A stretch of DNA of 53,265 bases, taken from Spirochaetes bacterium RBG_13_51_14. Its GTDB lineage: Bacteria > Spirochaetota > UBA4802 > UBA5550. The notes beneath the pieces are model-generated. The model was not told the DNA's origin, searched no databases, and saw only the letters and a program-made list of their open reading frames with translations. Position numbers and translations under genes: made by a program. The stretch lies in NCBI GenBank assembly GCA_001829455.1, contig MIBH01000023.1:92584-145848 (forward strand). The letters are read 5' to 3'. Positions 8,698 through 52,497 of the stretch are shown here, piece by piece. Every line of letters begins with the position of its first letter. The first letter of the stretch is position 1.

Positions 8698-10012
8698 ACT
8701 TCACAATGACCTGCGGGCTGTTGATGGGAAGATCGAGGTCTTTCGCCGGCTCAATGCCGCATATCTTGGTGAGTGACGTGTATGCCTCCTGCGCGAGCAC
8801 GGGATCGATATCGGTCACCAGCGTGAGAAGGAATGGTATCGCTGAAATGCACTTTGACTCAGCGGTAACCCGGATGATCCATATTTTAAAAAACTGGTTC
8901 CCCGATGCAAACCGCTCAGTCATGTCGCCGATGTTCTCCTCGCAGTACTGTGAGGTGTACCGCGTGTAGAATACGGAATTAAGAAGAGTTTCGCCGGACT
9001 CAATCGACTGCCGTTCAGCGTACGATATGATTTGCTGATACGACACAGTGATATTCAGGTTCTGGATATAGAACGCGATGATGTTGGCGACTTCCATTGA
9101 GCCGGACAGAATCAGGTTTTCCCATTCCGTCGGTGTGATCGTCAGGTGTCGGTGATACTCCCGTGAATAATAAATAAGGTCATAGAGCAGATAGGGATCA
9201 GATGTTTCAGTAACGATGGACTTGAAATCATTCAGGGGAAATGAATATCCCAGCCGCATGAGTATCTGTCCGGAGCGGGCCTGTGGAAACGAGGCGAAGG
9301 GTTTGAACTTGTATATCGTGACCAGGCTTCCCACAAAGGATGAATAAATGAATATGCCGATGAGGACGCCGAAGCCAATCGATTTCAATATTTTCTTTTT
9401 GTCGAAAACGAACCGGTCAGCCATGAATTCATAAATCAGAAGTATCAGGGCAAGTGTGATCTGGAAAAATTTTAACCCCGACATCGTGGCTCCGCTGGGG
9501 GAAAATAAAAACACGAGCTGATATATCAGAAAGTAGAGGGCTGCGCCGGCGACGAACAGGAGTAAGGTTATTTTCGGTCTCCGGTTGAATTTCAGTATGA
9601 TGAGCAGGATGAGGGAATAAAAAACCGTATTGGAAAACCTGCCGTCCAGAAGCTCCAGGATCGGGTTCCAGGGCCAGTGCTCCTTGTCCACAAAATTGAT
9701 CAGCGTGTAAATAACCGTGTTGGAATAGATGATCACAAAGGGAACGATCCGCGTTTTAATGAACAGGATCAAAACGCCGAACCGCCGGTAACCGCTCCGG
9801 TATTCATCTTTCAGCGGGTGTATCTCGAGCAGGGAGAAATTATATATAAGATAAAATGAAAATACATACAGGTACACGTTTACAATAATGGGAATGACAT
9901 CCCACTTGAAATTGAGGTTAGAAATGACATTGATGATAAACAAAATTATCAGGATATAAACAAAGGTTGTGATCTTCTTGAACTGATCTGTTACAATGGA
10001 TGTGACGGCCAT
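8660..10012 (-). CDS. polytopic membrane protein of unknown function
   Basis: 450-aa ORF with many hydrophobic segments; 3' end overlaps nth convergently by 38 bp. Confidence 0.75.
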   Translation of the reverse strand: MAVTSIVTDQFKKITTFVYILIILFIINVISNLNFKWDVIPIIVNVYLYVFSFYLIYNFSLLEIHPLKDEYRSGYRRFGVLILFIKTRIVPFVIIYSNTVIYTLINFVDKEHWPWNPILELLDGRFSNTVFYSLILLIILKFNRRPKITLLLFVAGAALYFLIYQLVFLFSPSGATMSGLKFFQITLALILLIYEFMADRFVFDKKKILKSIGFGVLIGIFIYSSFVGSLVTIYKFKPFASFPQARSGQILMRLGYSFPLNDFKSIVTETSDPYLLYDLIYYSREYHRHLTITPTEWENLILSGSMEVANIIAFYIQNLNITVSYQQIISYAERQSIESGETLLNSVFYTRYTSQYCEENIGDMTERFASGNQFFKIWIIRVTAESKCISAIPFLLTLVTDIDPVLAQEAYTSLTKICGIEPAKDLDLPINSPQVIVKFNEFYQRSRSTH

Positions 10013-33102: not shown

Positions 33103-36100
33103 TTGTTATTCATCAGCGGTTATGACACTATTGCCGAGACACACCGGGGCACGAGGCATATTACTTACACCGGCGTTCAATCCACCACCGGTCGGCAGGT
33201 CATCATCAAATACTTCCCTTTCGATAAACTGACATCGTCCCACATCGTCCAGCTCACCTACGAATACGAACAAGCGAAGCATATCGACTCCAACAATGTT
33301 GCGCGGGTCTATATATTCGAAAAGATCCGCGACCAGAACTGGAACGGGCTCATGTTCTTCATCGAAAACCCGACCGGCATCACCCTCCGGGAGTATTCGC
33401 TCCAGAAAAAGATACAGCCGCGGGAATTTCTCGATATCGCCATACAGATTGCCCGGGGCCTGAAAGAAATCCACCAGAATGAAATCATCCACTCCGATAT
33501 AAACCCCGGGTCAATAATCGTGAATCCTGAAACGCGGAATGTTAAAATACGGGATTTCGGATTCAACTCCATCACGGCCTATAAAACCGAAGATATCTAC
33601 AATCCCGAAGTCATTGTGAACAACCTTCCCTACATATCACCGGAACAAACCGGCCGAATCAACAGGAGCATCGATTACCGCTCGGACTTCTATTCCCTCG
33701 GCATCACGCTGTATGAACTCCTGACCGGGGAGCCGCCCTTCCCTTCTTCGGATCCGTTGGAAATCATCCACTCCCACATGGCGCGGCTGCCCCAGCCGCC
33801 AACAGCGGTCAAGGAGGACATCCCGCAGATGATCTCAACCATCATCATGAAAATGATGGCCAAGAATCCGGAAAACAGATACCAGAGCGCCCACGGTATA
33901 ATTTCCGATCTCGAAGAGTGCATGCGTCAGTTGAAAGCCACAGGCAGGATCGAGCTCTTCACGCCTGGTAAAAGCGATATTCAAGATAAGTTCATCATCC
34001 CTCAAAAGCTCTACGGCCGAACTCGTGAAATCGACGCGCTGATCTCCCTTTTCGACCAGACCCGCCAGGGCCCCATCCGGGTCTTGTTGGTGTCCGGTTA
34101 TGCGGGAATAGGAAAAACCACCCTGATCCACGAACTGTACAAGCCGGTAACGCGGCACAAGGGGTATTTCGTATCGGGTAAATTCAACAGCCTTGACAGC
34201 TATATTCCCTACAGTGCGATCATGCAGGCATTCCAGGCGCTCATCAAACAGATACTTTCCGAAAACGGGGAACGCGTGAAGGCCTGGAAACAGGGTCTCA
34301 TGAGCGCGGTCGGCCCTAACGGGAGAATAATTACCGATATACTGCCGGAGACGGAGTCGCTCATTGGGAGCCAACCCGAAATCCCTGAAACCGGTCCGGA
34401 AGAATCGCAGAACCGGTTTCGACTGGTGCTAAAGAATTTCATAAAACTATTCGCCGCTGAGGAACATCCGCTGGTGATGGTGCTCGAAGATCTCCAGTGG
34501 GCCGATTCGGCAAGCCTCGCTCTGCTCAAAACCATGGTAGCCGATCCTGACCTTTCCCACATTCTTTTCATCGGGTCATACCGCAGCGATGCAATCACTG
34601 ATCCCCACCCCCTGACCGCCTGGCTCGCGGACATCCGGGAGCAGAACACCGAGTTGCACGACCTTCAGCTTGGGCCGCTCACGCCGTCCGCCGTGAATGA
34701 ATTGATCGCCGACACCCTGAAAAGCGATACCGGGGCCTGCCGGGAGCTGGCCGAACTCATTTACCATAAAACCGGCGGAAACCCCTTCTTTCTCCGGCAG
34801 TTCCTCAAGCGACTGCATGATGATGGCATTCTGATTTACTCATCCGTTGCCGGCTGGCACTGGGACATGAACCGGATACAGAGGATGCGGGCTACGGAAA
34901 ATGTCATCGTGCTGATGAGCGAGCGAATCAGCCGGATGCGCGAAGAATCACGCGAAATTCTGACAATCATCTCCATCTTGGGCGCTCGCGTAACTCCTGA
35001 AATCCTGTCAGAAATTTGCGGCAGATCGCTCGAGGAAATAATCATCAGTCTGAACGATGCGGTCCAGAATGAGCTCATCATTACGACGCCGTTCGGATAC
35101 GCATTATCACATGACCGAATCCATGAATCAATCATCTCAATAACATCCGTGGATGACTTGAAGAAACTTCACTACCGGATCGGGAACACCCTCATGAAAC
35201 ATGCGTCACTCGAGGATCTGCCGGAAAAAGTATTCTCCATTATCGATCATTTCAACCAATGCCTGGATCTCATTTCAGACCCGGATGAAAAATGGGCAAT
35301 CGTGCAAATAAACATCCTGGCGGCCATTAAAGCGAAATCGTCCACTGCTTACCTCTCTGCGGTAAAATACTTTGACCATGCCATCAGCCTTCTTCCGGAC
35401 GACGTGTGGGAGGAGAATTACCCGATGGCATTCTCGATTTTCATGGAAAAGGCCGAGTGCCATTATCTTGCCGGAACAATGACGAACGATACAACCCCCC
35501 TCTATGTTTTGTTGAAACGTGCGCGTACTGTCATTGACCGGGCGAAGATATACAGCCTCCTTATCGTATTGTACAGCCACCAGAACAGGGTCGATGAAGC
35601 GATAGAGCTTGGTCTTAAAGCCATGGGAATTTTTAAACTGAAGCTCCCGAAGTCCCCGAGCGTGGCGTACATGGCAAAGGAGCTTTATTGCACCAGGATC
35701 GCGTTGAGAAAGAAGACCACCGACTATCTTTATAACTTGCCCCTTCTGGAAGACCGTGCCATTCTTCAGATGATGGACATCATGATGAAGATCACGGTCC
35801 CGGCGTATTATTCAAATAAAGAGTCAGATTTACGACTGATCATTCTACTGGCCCTAAAAATCATCAACATGACCCTGAAACACGGGAATTCGAGGTACGC
35901 CCCCTACGCGTACGCCGTCTACGGCGCAGTGGTGGGCACGCGTCTTCAGGAATACACGGACGCGTATGAATTTGGACGGCTGGGACTGGCTCTCAATGAT
36001 AAGTTCCATGATAGCGAATTTAAAGCCAGGCTCCATCACATCTTCGGAGCTTTGATTGCCTGCTGGAAGAGGCCCTATCATGAATATATCGAACACTTCG

Positions 36101-39036
36101 CGACCGCGCTCCGTGCGGGCATGGCTTCCGGAGACTTTCTTTTCACCAGCTATGCTATAACAAACATCTTGAGCCATTCCATCAGGAAAGGGAGGGATAT
36201 CAGTTCATTGATTTTGATCTACGAGACGCATCTTAACTTCATCAATCTGTCACGGTTTACCGTGGCCCAGGACGTTTTCAACATATTTTATTCAATGATC
36301 CAGAGGCTGAAGGGACTCGCTCAGGACGATCCGGGAAGCGATATCGACGAACACGATGCCTCGCCTATGATACAACGCATCCGGAAAAACAGGTACGTTC
36401 TGTGCCTTTTGCAATTGACCCGAATAATGTCCGCATACATTTTCGGAGATTATGAAAAGGCCTTGCAGATGGCATCACGCATCCATCATGAGGCCGACAA
36501 TTTTCTGAACGCTTCGATACATATATCCGAATACTATCTGTATTTTTCACTTTCAATCGCGGGGTCCTATCACCGGTTAACGCCGGGAGACCGAAAGCGG
36601 TACCTCCCGGTGTTAAAGAACAGCGTGCGGAGGTTCAAGACCTGGTCGGATCATTGCCCGGAAAATTTCATTCATCTCTACCACTTGCTGCAGGCCGAGC
36701 TTCTCCGAGTCACCGGGAACGGCCTCTCCGCCCTGCGGTCCTACGGTCAGGCGATACATTTCGCCCGGAAAAACGGCTATATCAACCACGAGGCCATGAT
36801 TTTCGAGCGGGCGGCCGATTTCCATATCCAACTCGGAAATGAAACTTCCGCCATGGCGCACATCAGGCAGGCGCATACCTGCTACCGTGAATGGGGGGCC
36901 GACGCAAAGGTGCGGGACATAGAGAATAAATTCGCCCCGTATCTCAATGTGACGGCAATGACAGAAGCGACCGCGGCGACGCGGCACCTGAACTATACGA
37001 GCATCGTGAACTCCCTGCAGGCCATATCGAGTGAAATCATCACCGAGGATCTGCTTAAAAAGCTCATGAAGATAGCGCTCGAGAACGCGGGAGGAGACCG
37101 GGGGTTCTTCATCACCATGGAAAATAATTCTGCGGCTATCGTTGCTGAAACGACCCTGATCGACGAGGTGAAAACCACCGTCAGAACAACCCCGCTGAGC
37201 GAAAAAAAAGACCTGCTCGTTCCCGTCATTAACTATGTGATCCACTCAAAGAAATGCCTGGTCATCAACGATGCCCGCAGGGAGGATAGCCTCCCGCTCG
37301 GACAGTACCCGCCGGAAAACCGTCCGCTTTCCGTTCTGTGTCTGCCGGTGGTACGTCACTCCGCGCTCACCGGAATCCTCTACCTGGAAAACAGGTTTGT
37401 CGCCGGTGCTTTCACCATAGACCATATTGAGATCCTCGAGCTACTGGCATCACAGGCGGCGATTTCTCTGGAAATTGCCCAGCTCTACGATAAACTTACC
37501 CAGGAAATCACCCAGCACTGGAGAGCCGAAGCGGCCCTGCGGGAAAGCGAGGATCGCTACCGGCTCGTGGTGGAATCAATGAACGAGGGGATCTGCGTGC
37601 TCGATGACAAGGGACTCATTCAGTTCGTGAATAACCGGTTCTGCGAGATGATCGGATACGAACGGGATGAAGTCATCGGACGCAACCTGGAGCATTTCCT
37701 CAACGAGACGAACATCATGATTCTCAAGCAGCAGCTTATGCGCCGGCGGCGGGGGGAACATGAGCCGTACGAGATCGAGATCATGAAAAGGGACGGCGGC
37801 ACGATAGCCACCATTGTTTCACCCCGGCCGATATACGACCATGACGGCAATTTCTCCGGAAGCTTCGGGCTGTTCACCGACATAACCGAAAAAAAGAGAA
37901 TGGAAGAAGATCTTCAGAAGGCCTCGAAAATTGAATCCCTGGGTGTGTTTGCCGGCGGTATCGCACACGACTTTAACAACCTGCTCACCGCCATCATAGG
38001 CAACATATCCCTGGCGCGGCTGAGCATCCCGCTGGACGACGACACTTCCGACATACTTCATGAAGCGGAAGCCGCGTCGCTCAGGGCCAAGGACCTGACA
38101 CACCAGCTCCTCACCTTTTCACGGGGAGGCGCGCCGATCAAGAAGACCACATCGATAAAGCACCTGCTCCGTCAGACTATCGACTTCGCGCTGAGCGGAT
38201 CGAACATCGTGTGTATCTACACCATTCAGAACGATCTCCAGAATGCCGAAATCGACGAAGGCCAGATCACCCAGGTTATTCACAACCTTATCATTAATGC
38301 CATGCAGGCGATGAAAGAAGGCGGCGTCATCGAGGTGAAAGCCGTGAACGAAGTGGTTGATGAACACTCCCGGCTTCCGCTCAAACAGGGACATTATATA
38401 CGGATAGAGTTTTCCGATCACGGCATCGGCATTCCCCCGGAAAATCAGAGGTACATCTTTGACCCCTATTTCACCACCAAAGAAAACGGCAGCGGTCTCG
38501 GACTTACGGTTTCATATTCCATCATCAAGCGTCATGAAGGACACATTTCCTTCGAATCCGAACCGGGCCGCGGAACGACCTTTATCATATATCTTCCATC
38601 ATCGAAAGATCAGGTTCGTGTGGAGGAAACCGAGGAACAAAAAAGCCTGCTCGCCTCGGGCAGGGTCCTCATCATGGATGATGATGAGGTGGTGCTCCGG
38701 GTCGCGGGCAATATGCTTTCACACCTGGGGATGACTGCTGATTTCGCAACCCACGGCGAGGAGGCCATCGAATTGTACCGAAAATCGATACAAGCCGGAC
38801 GTCCATACGATATCATTATCATGGATCTGACGGTACCGGGTAAAATGGGCGGTAAAGAGACCATCGCCAAGCTCAAGGAGATCAACCCGGCGGTAAAAGC
38901 CATCGTATCCAGCGGCTATTCAAACGACCCGGTCATGGCGAATTATTCCAGTTATGGATTTATCGACGTGGTCGCAAAGCCGTACCGGGTTGAAGACCTC
39001 AAGGCAGTCATTAACAGGGTTTTATATTCCTTTTAG
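33103..39036 (+). CDS. 1977-aa hybrid: Ser/Thr kinase-like, AAA ATPase, helical/TPR-like, GAF, PAS, histidine kinase, receiver
   Basis: IIHSDINPGSIIVNPETRNVKIRDFGF; VSGYAGIGKTTLIHELY; GAF; EDRYRLVVESMNEGICVLDD PAS; GGIAHDFNNLLTAIIGNISLARL; GSGLGLTVSYSI; RVLIMDDDEVVLR...IIIMDLTVPG; TTG start. Confidence 0.93.
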   Translation: MLFISGYDTIAETHRGTRHITYTGVQSTTGRQVIIKYFPFDKLTSSHIVQLTYEYEQAKHIDSNNVARVYIFEKIRDQNWNGLMFFIENPTGITLREYSLQKKIQPREFLDIAIQIARGLKEIHQNEIIHSDINPGSIIVNPETRNVKIRDFGFNSITAYKTEDIYNPEVIVNNLPYISPEQTGRINRSIDYRSDFYSLGITLYELLTGEPPFPSSDPLEIIHSHMARLPQPPTAVKEDIPQMISTIIMKMMAKNPENRYQSAHGIISDLEECMRQLKATGRIELFTPGKSDIQDKFIIPQKLYGRTREIDALISLFDQTRQGPIRVLLVSGYAGIGKTTLIHELYKPVTRHKGYFVSGKFNSLDSYIPYSAIMQAFQALIKQILSENGERVKAWKQGLMSAVGPNGRIITDILPETESLIGSQPEIPETGPEESQNRFRLVLKNFIKLFAAEEHPLVMVLEDLQWADSASLALLKTMVADPDLSHILFIGSYRSDAITDPHPLTAWLADIREQNTELHDLQLGPLTPSAVNELIADTLKSDTGACRELAELIYHKTGGNPFFLRQFLKRLHDDGILIYSSVAGWHWDMNRIQRMRATENVIVLMSERISRMREESREILTIISILGARVTPEILSEICGRSLEEIIISLNDAVQNELIITTPFGYALSHDRIHESIISITSVDDLKKLHYRIGNTLMKHASLEDLPEKVFSIIDHFNQCLDLISDPDEKWAIVQINILAAIKAKSSTAYLSAVKYFDHAISLLPDDVWEENYPMAFSIFMEKAECHYLAGTMTNDTTPLYVLLKRARTVIDRAKIYSLLIVLYSHQNRVDEAIELGLKAMGIFKLKLPKSPSVAYMAKELYCTRIALRKKTTDYLYNLPLLEDRAILQMMDIMMKITVPAYYSNKESDLRLIILLALKIINMTLKHGNSRYAPYAYAVYGAVVGTRLQEYTDAYEFGRLGLALNDKFHDSEFKARLHHIFGALIACWKRPYHEYIEHFATALRAGMASGDFLFTSYAITNILSHSIRKGRDISSLILIYETHLNFINLSRFTVAQDVFNIFYSMIQRLKGLAQDDPGSDIDEHDASPMIQRIRKNRYVLCLLQLTRIMSAYIFGDYEKALQMASRIHHEADNFLNASIHISEYYLYFSLSIAGSYHRLTPGDRKRYLPVLKNSVRRFKTWSDHCPENFIHLYHLLQAELLRVTGNGLSALRSYGQAIHFARKNGYINHEAMIFERAADFHIQLGNETSAMAHIRQAHTCYREWGADAKVRDIENKFAPYLNVTAMTEATAATRHLNYTSIVNSLQAISSEIITEDLLKKLMKIALENAGGDRGFFITMENNSAAIVAETTLIDEVKTTVRTTPLSEKKDLLVPVINYVIHSKKCLVINDARREDSLPLGQYPPENRPLSVLCLPVVRHSALTGILYLENRFVAGAFTIDHIEILELLASQAAISLEIAQLYDKLTQEITQHWRAEAALRESEDRYRLVVESMNEGICVLDDKGLIQFVNNRFCEMIGYERDEVIGRNLEHFLNETNIMILKQQLMRRRRGEHEPYEIEIMKRDGGTIATIVSPRPIYDHDGNFSGSFGLFTDITEKKRMEEDLQKASKIESLGVFAGGIAHDFNNLLTAIIGNISLARLSIPLDDDTSDILHEAEAASLRAKDLTHQLLTFSRGGAPIKKTTSIKHLLRQTIDFALSGSNIVCIYTIQNDLQNAEIDEGQITQVIHNLIINAMQAMKEGGVIEVKAVNEVVDEHSRLPLKQGHYIRIEFSDHGIGIPPENQRYIFDPYFTTKENGSGLGLTVSYSIIKRHEGHISFESEPGRGTTFIIYLPSSKDQVRVEETEEQKSLLASGRVLIMDDDEVVLRVAGNMLSHLGMTADFATHGEEAIELYRKSIQAGRPYDIIIMDLTVPGKMGGKETIAKLKEINPAVKAIVSSGYSNDPVMANYSSYGFIDVVAKPYRVEDLKAVINRVLYSF

Positions 39037-46026: not shown

Positions 46027-47094
46027 TCACGATACCGTCAACAGCTCGTAATCCGGATTGCCAAAACCGATCTCCCGCGCATAGTCAATCTGGAAGCGGT
46101 ATGGTATGTCGTAGGCCAGCTGGGACAATTTTTTCCCGGCCCGATTCTCAACCAGATCAAGAGAGGCCGCGTCCGCCGCCACCGGGTCGGCGGATATCAC
46201 AACGCCGATATCGGGCACGATGGGGTCGAAGGATGTCATGCAGTCGCAGTCCTTTGACATCCGTATCAGAAAATTGAAACATATCAACTTATCCTTCTTC
46301 CCCCGCGCTACGCCCCAGGCGTGCTCCGTCACTTTCTTCTGCAGCTGCTCGTATGTGGCGCCCCAGTTATAGGCCACGGCGTCGAATTGGCATACCGCAA
46401 GGCACTGGCCGCACCCGATGCAGACGGCGCTGTCGATGACGGCGCTTTCTTCACCCATGGTGATGGCCGATTCCGGGCACCACTGGACGCACAGGCCGCA
46501 GCGGGTGCATGCCTTGACTTTGATCTTCGGCTTGGCCGTGGAATGCTGGTTCATCTTTCCTTTTCTGCTTGAGCAGCCCATGCCCATGTTCTTCAGGGCG
46601 CATCCGAATCCGGCGGCCAGGTGTCCGGTGAAATGGGACACCATGATCAGGGCGCCGGCCTTGACGATAATAGATGCCAGCTTCACCGACTGGTAAATCT
46701 TCCCCGGCAGTGCAACTTCCACCTCTTCGTCACCGTAGAGCCCGTCTGCCATGATGATCGGCATGCCGGTGTTCTCGCGTCCGTATCCCTGCGCGTGAGC
46801 GTGGTTCAGGTGCGATACCGCATCCGCCCGGTTCCCCTTGTACAGAGTCTGGGTCTCGGTAAGAAAGGGGCTGCCCTTCTTTCCACGGACGAGCTCTCCC
46901 AGCATTTTCAGGTAGGAGGGCTGAATGTGGCCGGTCTTGCCCCCCTCGCCGAAGTGTGTCTTGATCGCCACCATATCCCTCTCGGCAATGAAGTCGAGCA
47001 GGCGATGCGATTCGATAACGTGTCTGAGCCGCGCGCATGCCGACGCATCGTCAACCGGCGTTGTTACCGGGATAAAATAGACCTTCTGTTTCAT
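46027..47094 (-). CDS. DUF362 domain / Fe-S center protein with 2x[4Fe-4S] ferredoxin motifs
   Basis: VAIKTHFGEGGKTGHIQPSYLKML; CTRCGLCVQWCP; CIGCGQCLAVCQ. Confidence 0.9.
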   Translation of the reverse strand: MKQKVYFIPVTTPVDDASACARLRHVIESHRLLDFIAERDMVAIKTHFGEGGKTGHIQPSYLKMLGELVRGKKGSPFLTETQTLYKGNRADAVSHLNHAHAQGYGRENTGMPIIMADGLYGDEEVEVALPGKIYQSVKLASIIVKAGALIMVSHFTGHLAAGFGCALKNMGMGCSSRKGKMNQHSTAKPKIKVKACTRCGLCVQWCPESAITMGEESAVIDSAVCIGCGQCLAVCQFDAVAYNWGATYEQLQKKVTEHAWGVARGKKDKLICFNFLIRMSKDCDCMTSFDPIVPDIGVVISADPVAADAASLDLVENRAGKKLSQLAYDIPYRFQIDYAREIGFGNPDYELLTVS

Positions 47095-48154: not shown

Positions 48155-48168
48155 TTGACTTAGGTCAA
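48155..48168. promoter_or_regulatory. Crp/Fnr superfamily (DNR/NnrR-type) site upstream of norZ
   Basis: TTGAC-TTAG-GTCAA; TACCAT -10-like hexamer at 48191-48196 would place it near -41.5. Confidence 0.75.
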
Positions 48169-48257
48169 TGCGCTCATCCGCATAGTGTGATACCATATCT
48201 TACCGTACGGGATGTTTTCTTGATTTTCATGATATTCAAACAGTTAAGGAGGCACTG

Positions 48258-50519
48258 ATGAAGGGTTTAAAAATTGGGGCGATACTGAGTTTCGTCATAT
48301 CAATTTCAGTATTGCTGGCAGGGGGTTACTTCTCTCTTGATAAAGTTCCGCCGATTCCTGACTATGTCAAGGACGGAGATACGGTATTTCTCGATGGAGC
48401 AACAATCAAGAGGGGGCAGGATGTTTATCAAAAGTACGGGCTGATGGATCACGGCAGCGTGTGGGGGCACGGAACCCTGCGTGGGCCCGATTTTTCAGCT
48501 ACCACGCTCAACCTCATCGGCCGGTATATGCGCGATTTCTATGCGCGGGAAAAAAATGCCGAATACAGATCACTGAGTCAGGACGAGCGGAGCACGATCG
48601 ACGCGCGGGTTATACGGGAGGTGAAGAAAAATACGTACGATGCGAACGCCAAAACGCTCGTGCTCAACCCGGCGCAGGAATACGCCTTCCGGGAGGTGAT
48701 CGGATACTGGGTCACGGTATTCAAGGCAGGGGACAAGTACAGCGGATTCTTGCCCGAAACGATCAAGGACGAGAACGAGCGCAGGGACATCGGTGGTTTC
48801 TTTTTCTGGACCGCGTGGGCCGCTTCCACGCTCAGACCGGGGTCGAACAGCACCTATACCAACAACTGGCCCCATGACGCCAGCGTGGGCAACGTGCTCC
48901 CCGACAGCGCGTTTCTCTGGTCGATATTCTCCATTCTCGCCATCTTTCTCGTGCTGGGTATCATCATCTACGTGATTCACCGGTTCCAATTCTTTTACGG
49001 CGAGGCCAAGGGCGTGCAGGTGGGGGAGAAGCTGATGAACCTGCCGCTGACCGGCAGCCAGGTCAAGGCGGCCAAGTTCTTTCTCGTCGTCATACTGCTG
49101 TTTATACTGCAGCTCATGATGGGCGGCCTGCTCGCCCACTACACCGTGCATCCGGGCACGTTTTACCTCGCTATCGTGGGCAAGCTGGTGCCGTACAGCT
49201 GGGCCAAGACCTGGCACCTGCAGCTCGCCATCTTCTGGATAGCCACCTCCTGGGTGGGTACCGCCATTTATCTCGCGCCCGTCATCGGCGGCAAAGAGCC
49301 CAAGGGACAGGGATTCCTGGTAAATCTCCTGTTCGTGGCCGTGCTCCTGGTGGCCGTTGGCAGCCTCACCGGCGAAGTCCTGGGCATCAAGGACAAGCTG
49401 GGAGAAGGCTGGTTCTGGTTCGGCCACCAGGGCTGGGAATACCTCGAGCTGGGAAGGCTCTGGCAGATTCTCCTCTTTGTCGGCCTCATCGCCTGGCTGG
49501 TGATCGTATACCGGGCCCTGAAGAACCGGCTCTACGGACCCGGCAAGGACGACAGCGGCCTAGTGCTCTTTTACACGCTGAGCGCCATTCTCGTAGTCGC
49601 CTTTTTTGGATTCGGCCTCTTTTATGGAAGGGGGACGCACCTGACCATAGCTGATTACTGGCGGTGGTTCGTGGTGCATATATGGGTCGAGGGCATTTTC
49701 GAGTTCTTCGGAGTGGCCATCATATCCCTGTTCCTGGTGACGCTGGGACTCGCGGACAAAAAGTCGGCGATGCGGGTTGCCTACCTGACCGCGATCCTGG
49801 TGTTCGCCAGCGGAATCATCGGCACCGCGCATCACTACTTCTGGTACGGCGGCCCCACCTACTGGATCGCTCTCGGAAGCGTGTTCTCGTCCCTCGAGCC
49901 GATACCCCTCATCACCCTGGTCGTCAGGGCATGGATGGAATACAAGGGAATCCGCGACGCGGGGAAGGAGTTCCCCTACCGGTGGCCGCTCTTTTTCCTG
50001 GTCGCGTCAAGCTTCTGGAATTTCCTCGGCGCCGGCGTGTTCGGTTTTATGATAAACCTGCCGGCGTTCAACTACTACGAGCATGCCACGTACCTGACCT
50101 CGAACCACGGGCACACCGCTCTCTTCGGCGTGTACGGCATGCTTTCCATATCGCTGCTCCTGTTCACCTGGCGGTCCCTGGTAAAAAGCGAATTCTGGAA
50201 CGAGAGGATACTGAAGCTCTCCTTCTGGGGGCTTAATGTCGGGCTCTTTCTCATGTTCTCGACAATGCTCCTGCCGGTGGGCATAGCGCAGGTCATGGCA
50301 GGATACGAGCACGGGTTCTGGTACACCCGCAGCGCTGAATTTTACAACTCGCCGCTGATCAAGATTCTGGGGCAGTGGCGGATCGTGCCGGACACCATTA
50401 TCATCGTCTTCGGCGCCATTCCGCTCCTCTATTTTCTCGTGACGACCTATTTCAGGCTCAAGCCGGGCAGCATAAAGGGGGGCCAGAAGATATACCAGGA
50501 CAACGAGCGCATCATGTAA
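48258..50519 (+). CDS. norZ: quinol-dependent nitric oxide reductase (qNOR)
   Basis: NorC-like N-terminus (IKRGQDVYQKYGLMDHGSVWGHG), TWHLQLAIFWIATSWVGTAIYLAP, VEGIFEFFGV, GTAHHYFWYGGPTYWIALGSVFSSLEPIPL, NHGHTALFGVYGM. Confidence 0.95.
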   Translation: MKGLKIGAILSFVISISVLLAGGYFSLDKVPPIPDYVKDGDTVFLDGATIKRGQDVYQKYGLMDHGSVWGHGTLRGPDFSATTLNLIGRYMRDFYAREKNAEYRSLSQDERSTIDARVIREVKKNTYDANAKTLVLNPAQEYAFREVIGYWVTVFKAGDKYSGFLPETIKDENERRDIGGFFFWTAWAASTLRPGSNSTYTNNWPHDASVGNVLPDSAFLWSIFSILAIFLVLGIIIYVIHRFQFFYGEAKGVQVGEKLMNLPLTGSQVKAAKFFLVVILLFILQLMMGGLLAHYTVHPGTFYLAIVGKLVPYSWAKTWHLQLAIFWIATSWVGTAIYLAPVIGGKEPKGQGFLVNLLFVAVLLVAVGSLTGEVLGIKDKLGEGWFWFGHQGWEYLELGRLWQILLFVGLIAWLVIVYRALKNRLYGPGKDDSGLVLFYTLSAILVVAFFGFGLFYGRGTHLTIADYWRWFVVHIWVEGIFEFFGVAIISLFLVTLGLADKKSAMRVAYLTAILVFASGIIGTAHHYFWYGGPTYWIALGSVFSSLEPIPLITLVVRAWMEYKGIRDAGKEFPYRWPLFFLVASSFWNFLGAGVFGFMINLPAFNYYEHATYLTSNHGHTALFGVYGMLSISLLLFTWRSLVKSEFWNERILKLSFWGLNVGLFLMFSTMLLPVGIAQVMAGYEHGFWYTRSAEFYNSPLIKILGQWRIVPDTIIIVFGAIPLLYFLVTTYFRLKPGSIKGGQKIYQDNERIM

Positions 50520-51202
50520 TGCTCGGCGGATCGGCAATCAAGGCGCGGGTATCGATGATGAGCGGTCGTGATTCGAGAATAGTGATCGAGCGGTGCAGAG
50601 GCGGAAAAGCATGTCCGAGCGTTGCAGCATCAGGCACCAGGCTTATCCGCGATCTGACAGCCTTGTCCGAACGACTGGCCGGATACAGCGGAATTTCCGG
50701 TGAGGAGGAGCGGGTACCTCACCGGAAATTCACCTTATCATTATCGCTTTGCCCTAACGGATGCTCGCAGCCTCAGATAGCCGACATCGGTATCATCAGC
50801 GCCGTGGTCGTGCGCGCGGATCCCGATGCCTGCACCGGCTGCGGCGCCTGCATCACCGCGTGCCGGGAGCGCGCAATATCGCTGGATGAGCGTTTCCTAC
50901 CGGTCATCGACGGCCGCTGCCTGCAGTGCGGCGACTGTCTGCGCGCGTGCCCCTCAAACGCCCTACTCCCCGGCTCTACCGGATTCAGGATATTGCTGGG
51001 GGGGAAGCTCGGCCGTCACCCGCAGCTGGGAAAGGAGCTGCCGGGTTTATTTTCCGAAGAGGATGTTGTTGAAATTGTCTCCCGCGGCTATTCATTATTC
51101 TCCGAATATCAGCGCTGGATCCGTCTTGGCGACGTCATCAATAGGCAAGGGCTTGCATGGCTCCCAGAACGATTTCTTATCGATAAAGGACGGCAAACAT
51201 GA
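50519..51202 (+). CDS. half-size siroheme-motif protein (CX5C...CX3C) fused to 2x[4Fe-4S] ferredoxin
   Basis: RCRGGKACP and LCPNGCSQPQIADIGI, then CTGCGACITAC and CLQCGDCLRAC; start overlaps norZ stop (TAATG). Confidence 0.85.
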   Translation: MLGGSAIKARVSMMSGRDSRIVIERCRGGKACPSVAASGTRLIRDLTALSERLAGYSGISGEEERVPHRKFTLSLSLCPNGCSQPQIADIGIISAVVVRADPDACTGCGACITACRERAISLDERFLPVIDGRCLQCGDCLRACPSNALLPGSTGFRILLGGKLGRHPQLGKELPGLFSEEDVVEIVSRGYSLFSEYQRWIRLGDVINRQGLAWLPERFLIDKGRQT

Positions 51203-52497
51203 GGATAGTCATATCGGCGCTTTCGTTCCTGCTCCTGGCCGCTCACTTTTTACGAGCCGGAGAAACGGGACTGCTTCTTCTGAGCCTGAGCTCCCCGCTG
51301 CTCCTGGCCGTAAGGAGAAAATGGGCCGTGAACGGGGCGCTCGCGCTGCTCGCGTACGCGACAGTGGTATGGATTGAGGCCGGCATAACCGTCGCGCGCT
51401 CCCGGATCGATAGCAATCTGCCATGGACGCGCCCGGCGATAATACTGGCGGCTGTTGCCGCAGGCACCCTGGTATCGGCGCTGGCCCTTATTCCTCTGAA
51501 AAAAACTGACCGTTACACGGCCGTTATTCAGCAGGAATGGCCATCAACCGCGGCATTTTTTCTGACTGCGGCGATTGTATCAACAGCGCGAATCAAGGCA
51601 CCGGTTCCGGTGTTGCTGTTCGACCGGCTTATTCCCGGTTCCGGGTGGGTTGAAATACTGCTCCTGTCATCCTATGCGGCATGGCTCACGGAAATCATGA
51701 TACGCGCGCGCACAACGGCGCTCATCCGGGCCAGGATCTGGGCCGCCTTCTCGCTGGTTTTTTTCATACAGCTTCTGCTGGGCCTTGCCGGCGCCGGAAT
51801 CTTTTTTATGACCGGAAAACTCCACCTACCCGTGCCGGCCCTTATCATCGCCGGGCCCCTGTACCGCGGCGGCGGATTCTTCATGCCGATCCTGTTCGTA
51901 TCAGCGCTGCTGCTGATAGGTCCCGCCTGGTGCAGCTATCTCTGTTATTTCGGCGCATGGGACAACAGCGCATGCAGAGTAAAAAACGCGCCGGACAGGC
52001 CGGAACCCTGGATGAAACGCTCCCGGATCGCGATACTTGTATTTATAACAATCACCGCGATCGCGATGCGGCACTATAATGTTCCGCCCCCGGCTGCCGC
52101 GGTTTCGGTCGCCGCTTTCGGTTTAATCGGCGTCGGCGTTATGATCATGATATCACGAAAACGCGGGATCATGGCGCATTGCACGGCGTGGTGTCCCGCG
52201 GGGCTGGCGGCAGATATTCTTGGTAAAATATCACCCTTCCGCATAACCATCAGCGACGCGTGCACGGAGTGCGGCGCGTGCCGCAGCGCATGCCGATACG
52301 GAGCGCTTGAGCCGGGGGACATACGAAAAAAACGCCCCGGCCTCACCTGCTCGCTCTGCGGCGACTGCCTTCCCTCTTGCGGCAAACGAGCAATCACTTA
52401 CCGCTTTCTCGCGCTGGATCCGGAGACCGCGCGCGCCTTTTTTATCTCAATAGTCATATCCCTGCACGCCGCCTTTCTGGGCATAGCGCGTATGTGA
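51199..52497 (+). CDS. membrane-bound polyferredoxin (NapH/NosR/CcoG-like)
   Basis: Many TM segments; GPAWCSYLCYFGAW, HCTAWCPAGL, CTECGACRSAC, CSLCGDCLPSC; ATGA overlap with upstream gene. Confidence 0.87.
   Translation: MRIVISALSFLLLAAHFLRAGETGLLLLSLSSPLLLAVRRKWAVNGALALLAYATVVWIEAGITVARSRIDSNLPWTRPAIILAAVAAGTLVSALALIPLKKTDRYTAVIQQEWPSTAAFFLTAAIVSTARIKAPVPVLLFDRLIPGSGWVEILLLSSYAAWLTEIMIRARTTALIRARIWAAFSLVFFIQLLLGLAGAGIFFMTGKLHLPVPALIIAGPLYRGGGFFMPILFVSALLLIGPAWCSYLCYFGAWDNSACRVKNAPDRPEPWMKRSRIAILVFITITAIAMRHYNVPPPAAAVSVAAFGLIGVGVMIMISRKRGIMAHCTAWCPAGLAADILGKISPFRITISDACTECGACRSACRYGALEPGDIRKKRPGLTCSLCGDCLPSCGKRAITYRFLALDPETARAFFISIVISLHAAFLGIARM

Follow-up and report, generated by a model that had tools for sequence, protein, structure and literature searches.

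The stretch of DNA analyzed here, referred to as the window, comprises 53,265 nucleotides of contig MIBH01000023.1 of Spirochaetes bacterium RBG_13_51_14 (assembly GCA_001829455.1; 84 contigs, completeness 90%; designated G000 below). Positions 48155-52497 of the window carry norZ, encoding a quinol-dependent nitric oxide (NO) reductase, followed by two further genes, here designated sirFd and polyFd, whose predicted products are a half-size relative of the sulfite reductases and a membrane polyferredoxin. The features of the locus are as follows.

48155-48168 (+): TTGACTTAGGTCAA, a palindrome and candidate operator of the CRP/FNR type (HcpR/DNR-like), matching wyTTGACnnnnGTCAArw (PMC1274295)
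48191-48196 (+): TACCAT, candidate -10 element at a distance of 29 nt from the centre of the box, the spacing of class II activators
48246-48252 (+): AAGGAGG, Shine-Dalgarno ribosome-binding site of norZ, read from the sequence
48258-50519 (+): norZ, quinol-dependent NO reductase, 753 amino acids (PF00115, 1e-61; PF22085, 2e-52)
50519-51202 (+): sirFd, 227 amino acids, NIR_SIR domain with inserted 2[4Fe-4S] ferredoxin (PF01077, 1e-14; fold match to Fsr 7npa; alignments)
50594-50614 (+): CX5C of sirFd (C26, C32; CRGGKAC, residues 26-32), first half of the sulfite-reductase-type cluster motif, invariant in the alignment
50750-50764 (+): CX3C of sirFd (C78, C82; CPNGC, residues 78-82), in which C82 aligns with the siroheme-bridging C472 of Fsr (alignment; PMC10229431)
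50831-50950 (+): two-cluster ferredoxin insert of sirFd, eight Cys (domain match; alignment)
51199-52497 (+): polyFd, 432 amino acids, membrane polyferredoxin of predicted NapH/NosR-like architecture (domain and transmembrane predictions, alignment)
51931-51945 (+): first membrane-border CX3C of polyFd (C245, C249), invariant
52180-52194 (+): second membrane-border CX3C of polyFd (C328, C332), invariant
52261-52380 (+): ferredoxin domain of polyFd, eight Cys, predicted to be cytoplasmic and followed by a C-terminal transmembrane helix (motifs, alignment)

The coordinates and overlaps given for the three genes in the initial annotation were borne out: the norZ stop codon TAA shares bases with the sirFd start (TAATG, 50517-50521), while sirFd and polyFd overlap by 4 nt (ATGA), and norZ, sirFd and polyFd probably form one operon, read as a single transcript. 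By its domain content NorZ is an ordinary quinol NO reductase (qNOR): residues 7-741 match the Geobacillus-type qNOR structure 3ayf (E=1e-204), and the protein possesses, at full length, the fused cytochrome-c-like and COX1-type catalytic domains and the catalytic His/Glu segments. The description of PolyFd as a multi-transmembrane polyferredoxin with two Cys motifs and two 4Fe-4S motifs (the latter at residues 355-365 and 384-394) likewise stands, and its twelve motif cysteines are shared by all seven sequences aligned. A positive-inside reading would place its ferredoxin domain in the cytoplasm. Against the NapH/MauN model (NCBIfam TIGR02163), PolyFd scores 36.5 bits over its ferredoxin part only, below the cut-off of 213, and thus falls outside that family.

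Domains and residues of SirFd

SirFd had been described as carrying both halves of the siroheme-[4Fe-4S] motif together with two ferredoxin motifs, which agrees with the PF01077 match, the CX5C and CX3C halves of the NIR_SIR cluster motif and two CX2CX2CX3C ferredoxin motifs at residues 105-115 and 134-144. All twelve cysteines, equivalent to three [4Fe-4S] clusters, are invariant across the eight homologues aligned, the first motif being spaced as CX4C in the copy of the congener G002. A Foldseek search with the predicted fold returned Fsr as the best match (E=2e-11), the AlphaFold2 model being of moderate quality and derived from a shallow alignment. The remark that SirFd is too short for a full reductase proved to be an understatement, as known half-size siroheme proteins consist of PF03460 plus PF01077, and SirFd of PF01077 only. 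A Pfam search returned no match to PF03460 (NIR_SIR_ferr) in SirFd at E<=1; this half domain carries the N-terminal cradle residues, and SirFd does not belong to the siroheme reductases by that test. Furthermore, the siroheme-cradle domain is missing from all six NO-linked copies, whose open reading frames (ORFs) offer no room for one. An overlooked N-terminal extension was ruled out, given that the sirFd frame reaches at most 48 codons upstream, inside norZ; there is no room either in the standalone or operon-head copies of G002, G011 and G032.

In Fsr, siroheme is held mainly by the basic residues of one protomer, with the [4Fe-4S] cluster provided by its partner; substrate is bound by R355, R423, K460 and K462, while C472 bridges to the siroheme (PMC10229431). 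Alignment to Fsr places C468 and C472 at SirFd C78 and C82, K460 at K70 and K462 at T72, while R355 and R388 sit before the first cluster cysteine, on a stretch that is absent from SirFd. The R423 position, five residues before the first Cys, is occupied by I, I, F, C, C and C in the six NO-linked proteins, and by Arg in every full-size relative aligned. The third substrate residue is retained as K or R in two of the six, and the K462 position, corresponding to the fourth basic residue, reads T, R, R, S, I and S, compared to Lys in every full-size relative aligned. The window protein keeps one of the four substrate Arg/Lys residues (K70), fewer than the three expected of a siroheme enzyme. What defines the Dsr-LPs is a coupled siroheme site plus three or more of the four basic residues (PMC3448663), and SirFd falls outside this group, even though its twelve cluster cysteines are kept.

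As NIR_SIR_ferr and the substrate Arg/Lys are absent while the twelve cysteines are invariant, SirFd is most likely a siroheme-less ferredoxin rather than a second nitrogen-oxide reductase. By comparison of aligned sequences, the siroheme and substrate residues have been lost, and SirFd would bind three clusters and no siroheme. In a phylogenetic tree the short SirFd-type proteins and their full-size relatives form separate groups (90/90), and several of the branches are long. The proposal that SirFd is a second siroheme enzyme acting on nitrogen oxides or hydroxylamine is thus not upheld, neither for SirFd nor for its NO-linked relatives, all of which lack the cradle domain and substrate residues (PMC10229431, PMC3448663).

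The promoter box and the NO regulon

Position 48155, at which the initial annotation began the locus, coincides with the start of the palindrome TTGACTTAGGTCAA, which is more informative on regulation than any other feature of the locus. Rodionov and colleagues defined wyTTGACnnnnGTCAArw as the HcpR box in Geobacter and Desulfuromonas, and TTGATnnnnATCAA as the DNR box (PMC1274295). Only three sites of the form TTGAYNTANRTCAA are present in the window genome: one upstream of norZ, one between hemC and hemB, and one at C17:33846. This third site adjoins a short frame that looks hemerythrin-like by eye (without a Pfam match) and lies approximately 1.9 kb from a flavodiiron gene. The box is rare; three congeners contain 3, 3 and 2 box sites, with 0, 0 and 2 for a reversed-pattern control. 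Related boxes precede norZ in G001, sirFd in G002 and, with one mismatch, in G013, and hcp in G019, while another is situated, in the window genome, between the genes of a CRP/FNR regulator and of a DUF438-hemerythrin-PAS protein. The upstream box is hence common to other NO-defence genes, as in a regulon of the HcpR/DNR type. A candidate regulator, encoded on contig C11 of the window genome (G000:C11), possesses an ExxSR recognition helix and adjoins such a box. The NO-type box between hemC and hemB (L207:2613; G000:C54:118612) suggests that heme synthesis is part of the NO regulon.

In all five promoters compared (norZ twice, sirFd twice, hcp once), which were picked after the fact, the distance from the centre of the box to the start of a -10-like hexamer is 28-29 nt; the summed score was reached in 0 of 200,000 shuffles and the offset forms one clear peak. 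Class II FNR promoters have the same box-to--10 spacing. Since the box also precedes sirFd in the norZ-free G002 and hcp in G019, the sirFd/polyFd pair appears to belong to the NO regulon, yet not to be the obligatory donor of NorZ.

Two further arrangements were observed. A cluster in G001 (L200:2199-4995) consists of a box, a hemerythrin-like short ORF, a small protein and a different NapH-like polyferredoxin (370 amino acids), and ends with a CRP/FNR regulator that has its own box, TTGACGCGCGTCAA. In G032 (L084), approximately 130-60 bases upstream of position 8793, a perfect 19-bp palindrome, TACTTAGGATTCCTAAGTA, overlaps a -10-like element before sirFd/polyFd, suggesting that a different regulator may control the pair in that genome.

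Recurrence of the sirFd/polyFd pair

Wide homologue searches covered samples of genomes, i.e., 99 relatives, a 395-genome sample of the phylum and 399 genomes in another phylum. Short-type sirFd homologues were found in five other genomes among the 99 relatives; in the phylum sample, sirFd scored above 250 bits in only 6 of 395 genomes (the next matches, to larger proteins, reaching at most 137 bits), while polyFd was present in eight. A sample of 399 genomes centred on a Desulfosporosinus-type genome returned no polyFd homologue at E<=1e-25, in a search run without a positive control.

The pair with its 4-nt overlap occurs in five genomes (G000, G011, G013, G019 and G032) and is located near NO genes in four of these, norZ being linked to it in four. 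A lack of recurrence of the three genes in related genomes would have counted against the initial annotation, and the outcome is mixed: the pair recurs, while the exact contiguous norZ-sirFd-polyFd triad was found only in the window genome. In G032, G013 and G019, norZ lies approximately 2.3-4.2 kb from the pair (approximately 4 kb upstream in G032), and in G013 and G019 norZ and genes for a cupin, a flavodiiron protein and a hemerythrin form a cluster with the pair. The syntenic locus varies within the genus, comprising norZ-sirFd-polyFd in G000, norZ alone in G001 (81% identical) and sirFd alone in G002, a genome in which no norZ was found. In G008, polyFd is situated behind a cupin gene and without norZ, while in the more distant G258 of the same phylum the genes for a CRP-family regulator and a hybrid cluster protein (hcp) come after a polyFd homologue. 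The tendency of norZ and the pair genes to occur in the same genomes is only modest (5/8 versus 9/41, p=0.03), and linkage is the stronger evidence.

Of note, a 355-residue protein with two ferredoxin motifs is encoded divergently from the norZ operon (window positions 46027-47094, minus strand) and has been retained next to it in two congeners (76% identical in G001, 80% in G002), being usable as a synteny anchor. Other norZ genes of the order (L117, L119 and L120) cluster with hemerythrins, and sirFd and polyFd are not present there; L117 contains a cupin like that of G008, L117 and L120 an NDH-2-like flavoprotein (by eye), and L119 a flavodiiron gene. Unrelated to the norZ operon is an open frame of 1977 amino acids at window positions 33103-39036 (plus strand).

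A proposed electron module, its alternatives and known systems

We propose, with a probability of roughly 55%, that SirFd and PolyFd constitute an NO-induced membrane-to-cytosol electron module for cytosolic NO detoxification or repair, within the NO-stress operon at 48155-52497. A CRP/FNR-family activator of the HcpR/DNR kind, possibly that encoded at G000:C11, would bind TTGACTTAGGTCAA at about -41.5 and switch on norZ, sirFd and polyFd, upon which NorZ, drawing on membrane quinol, would convert NO to N2O. SirFd would derive from that half of a ferredoxin-type (Dsr-LP/AsrC-like) sulfite reductase which bears the cluster and, having lost siroheme cradle and substrate residues, would act as a soluble carrier with three [4Fe-4S] clusters, while PolyFd, as its NapH/NosR-like membrane partner, would shuttle electrons between the quinone pool and SirFd. 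These electrons would serve cytosolic NO-defence proteins or, alternatively, allow iron-sulfur or iron sites damaged by NO to be repaired by reduction. The gene arrangement, the promoter architecture and the conserved pair are established by sequence comparison; the direction of electron flow and the existence of a recipient are what we infer from them, and the identity of the recipient is a guess. The likeliest here may be the flavodiiron NO reductase at G000:C17, its gene being present in the window genome and no Hcp having been found there; Hcp was rejected as recipient in view of the lack of a TIGR01703 match in G000 or G002. A bolder version, which we consider rather doubtful, holds that the two proteins form an undescribed NO-defence redox complex, in which the sulfite-reductase-type [4Fe-4S] cluster, together with its former bridging cysteine, would have turned after siroheme loss into a site that reacts with NO or delivers electrons and that connects the quinone pool with NO reduction in the cytosol, without involving NorZ.

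Several observations weigh against the proposed module. The structure models are of limited confidence, with a predicted local distance difference test (pLDDT) score of 62 for SirFd (moderate) and of 57 for PolyFd (low, shallow alignment), and the membrane part of PolyFd matches no named family above cut-off. No such box was found upstream of the pair in G011 and G032, and the presence of sirFd without polyFd in G002, and of polyFd without sirFd in G008, argues against strict interdependence. Furthermore, PF03460 proteins occur in every genome checked, such that a siroheme cradle could come from another protein, and a SirC-like siroheme synthase is encoded in nine of ten genomes. With these enzymes so widespread, siroheme availability was dropped as a discriminator.

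The last two points bear on whether SirFd is instead a small siroheme enzyme that reduces NO, nitrite or hydroxylamine and is fed by PolyFd. Its complete CX5C/CX3C cluster motif, its sulfite-reductase C-terminal fold, the siroheme synthesis genes of most of these genomes and the known role of Dsr-type half proteins in carrying siroheme (PMC3448663) are all consistent with this reading. However, the cradle domain is missing, with no room in the ORFs, from six of six NO-linked copies, and, of the substrate Arg/Lys, the first belongs to the absent domain and no copy keeps the second; two of the six have K or R as the third, and at the fourth position none has K and two have R. An enzyme of this kind was rejected as the principal reading of SirFd on this domain and residue comparison and is quite unlikely. 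The possibility that the pair repairs or rebuilds iron-sulfur or iron centres after NO damage, supplying reductant for repair rather than serving an NO reductase, is unlikely, though less so: its regulon neighbours include hemerythrin-type and DUF438-hemerythrin-PAS proteins, a superfamily to which the RIC repair proteins belong (PMC9268430), and sirFd persists without norZ in G002, as does polyFd in G008. Nevertheless, no repair gene is consistently adjacent, and the invariant three-cluster set suggests electron transfer over scaffolding.

A dedicated path carrying electrons from ferredoxin or quinol to NorZ, as initially envisaged, draws on the shared string of overlapping genes and on the linkage of norZ to the pair in four genomes. 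Yet norZ stands alone under the same promoter in G001, sirFd occurs alone in the norZ-free G002 and polyFd alone in G008, NorZ matches an ordinary qNOR end to end, and most norZ relatives examined are without the pair. Because each part occurs without NorZ, NorZ is no obligatory client of SirFd and PolyFd, and such a path is distinctly improbable. The initial interpretation is thus supported in part, by the recurrence of two linked and overlapping genes in the vicinity of NO genes and by the NO-type box before the operon, but neither as regards a siroheme enzyme nor as regards a path to NorZ.

Should the proposed electron module be correct, an accessory electron-transfer module would be added to the NO-stress toolkit of anaerobes, half of a sulfite reductase would have been re-used as a ferredoxin following siroheme loss, and a testable candidate would be available for the way in which NO reductases in the cytosol of anaerobes could tap the quinone pool. 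For metagenomes, caution is warranted, as SirFd-type proteins should not be annotated as nitrite or sulfite reductases.

No description of the sirFd/polyFd pair, nor of a siroheme-less sulfite-reductase-like protein together with norZ, was found in the literature. Dsr-LP group III, AsrC and the C-terminal domain of Fsr are siroheme proteins with an inserted ferredoxin, Fsr (7np8/7npa) being the closest solved relative, and they display the same order as SirFd of CX5C, CX3C and two-cluster ferredoxin insert; in contrast to the members of this group, in which three or more of the four basic residues are retained (PMC3448663), SirFd lacks PF03460 and the substrate Arg/Lys. The low-molecular-weight sulfite reductase of the Desulfovibrio vulgaris alSiR type and proteins of the DEACI_1836 type are, like SirFd, single half-size chains with one sulfite-reductase-type cluster motif. 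However, DEACI_1836 combines PF03460 with PF01077 (PMC10949509), where SirFd has PF01077 only and two more clusters, and alSiR is group-I-like and without the ferredoxin insert (PMC3448663) that SirFd possesses.

Proteins of 204 amino acids from Desulfosporosinus-type metagenome-assembled genomes (L009:7986-8600 and L010:7986-8600) carry, as does SirFd, PF01077 and a ferredoxin without PF03460, and the tree places them together with the NO-linked proteins (90/90). They differ in that the first motif is CX3C, the fourth Lys is kept and the gene lies beside a molybdopterin oxidoreductase-like operon; no polyFd homologue was found in that Desulfosporosinus-type genome. The short NIR_SIR-ferredoxin architecture is thus not confined to NO loci. 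PolyFd resembles NapH, NosR and other polyferredoxin membrane proteins in its transmembrane helices, two CX3C motifs and C-terminal two-cluster domain, but differs from NapH in its extra N-terminal helices and C-terminal anchor. Finally, the hcp-frdX members of the HcpR regulons of Geobacter and Desulfuromonas resemble the window operon in combining a TTGACnnnnGTCAA box with an NO-defence enzyme and a ferredoxin-like partner (PMC1274295), although in the window the NO enzyme is norZ and the partner is a sulfite-reductase-derived ferredoxin accompanied by a membrane polyferredoxin.

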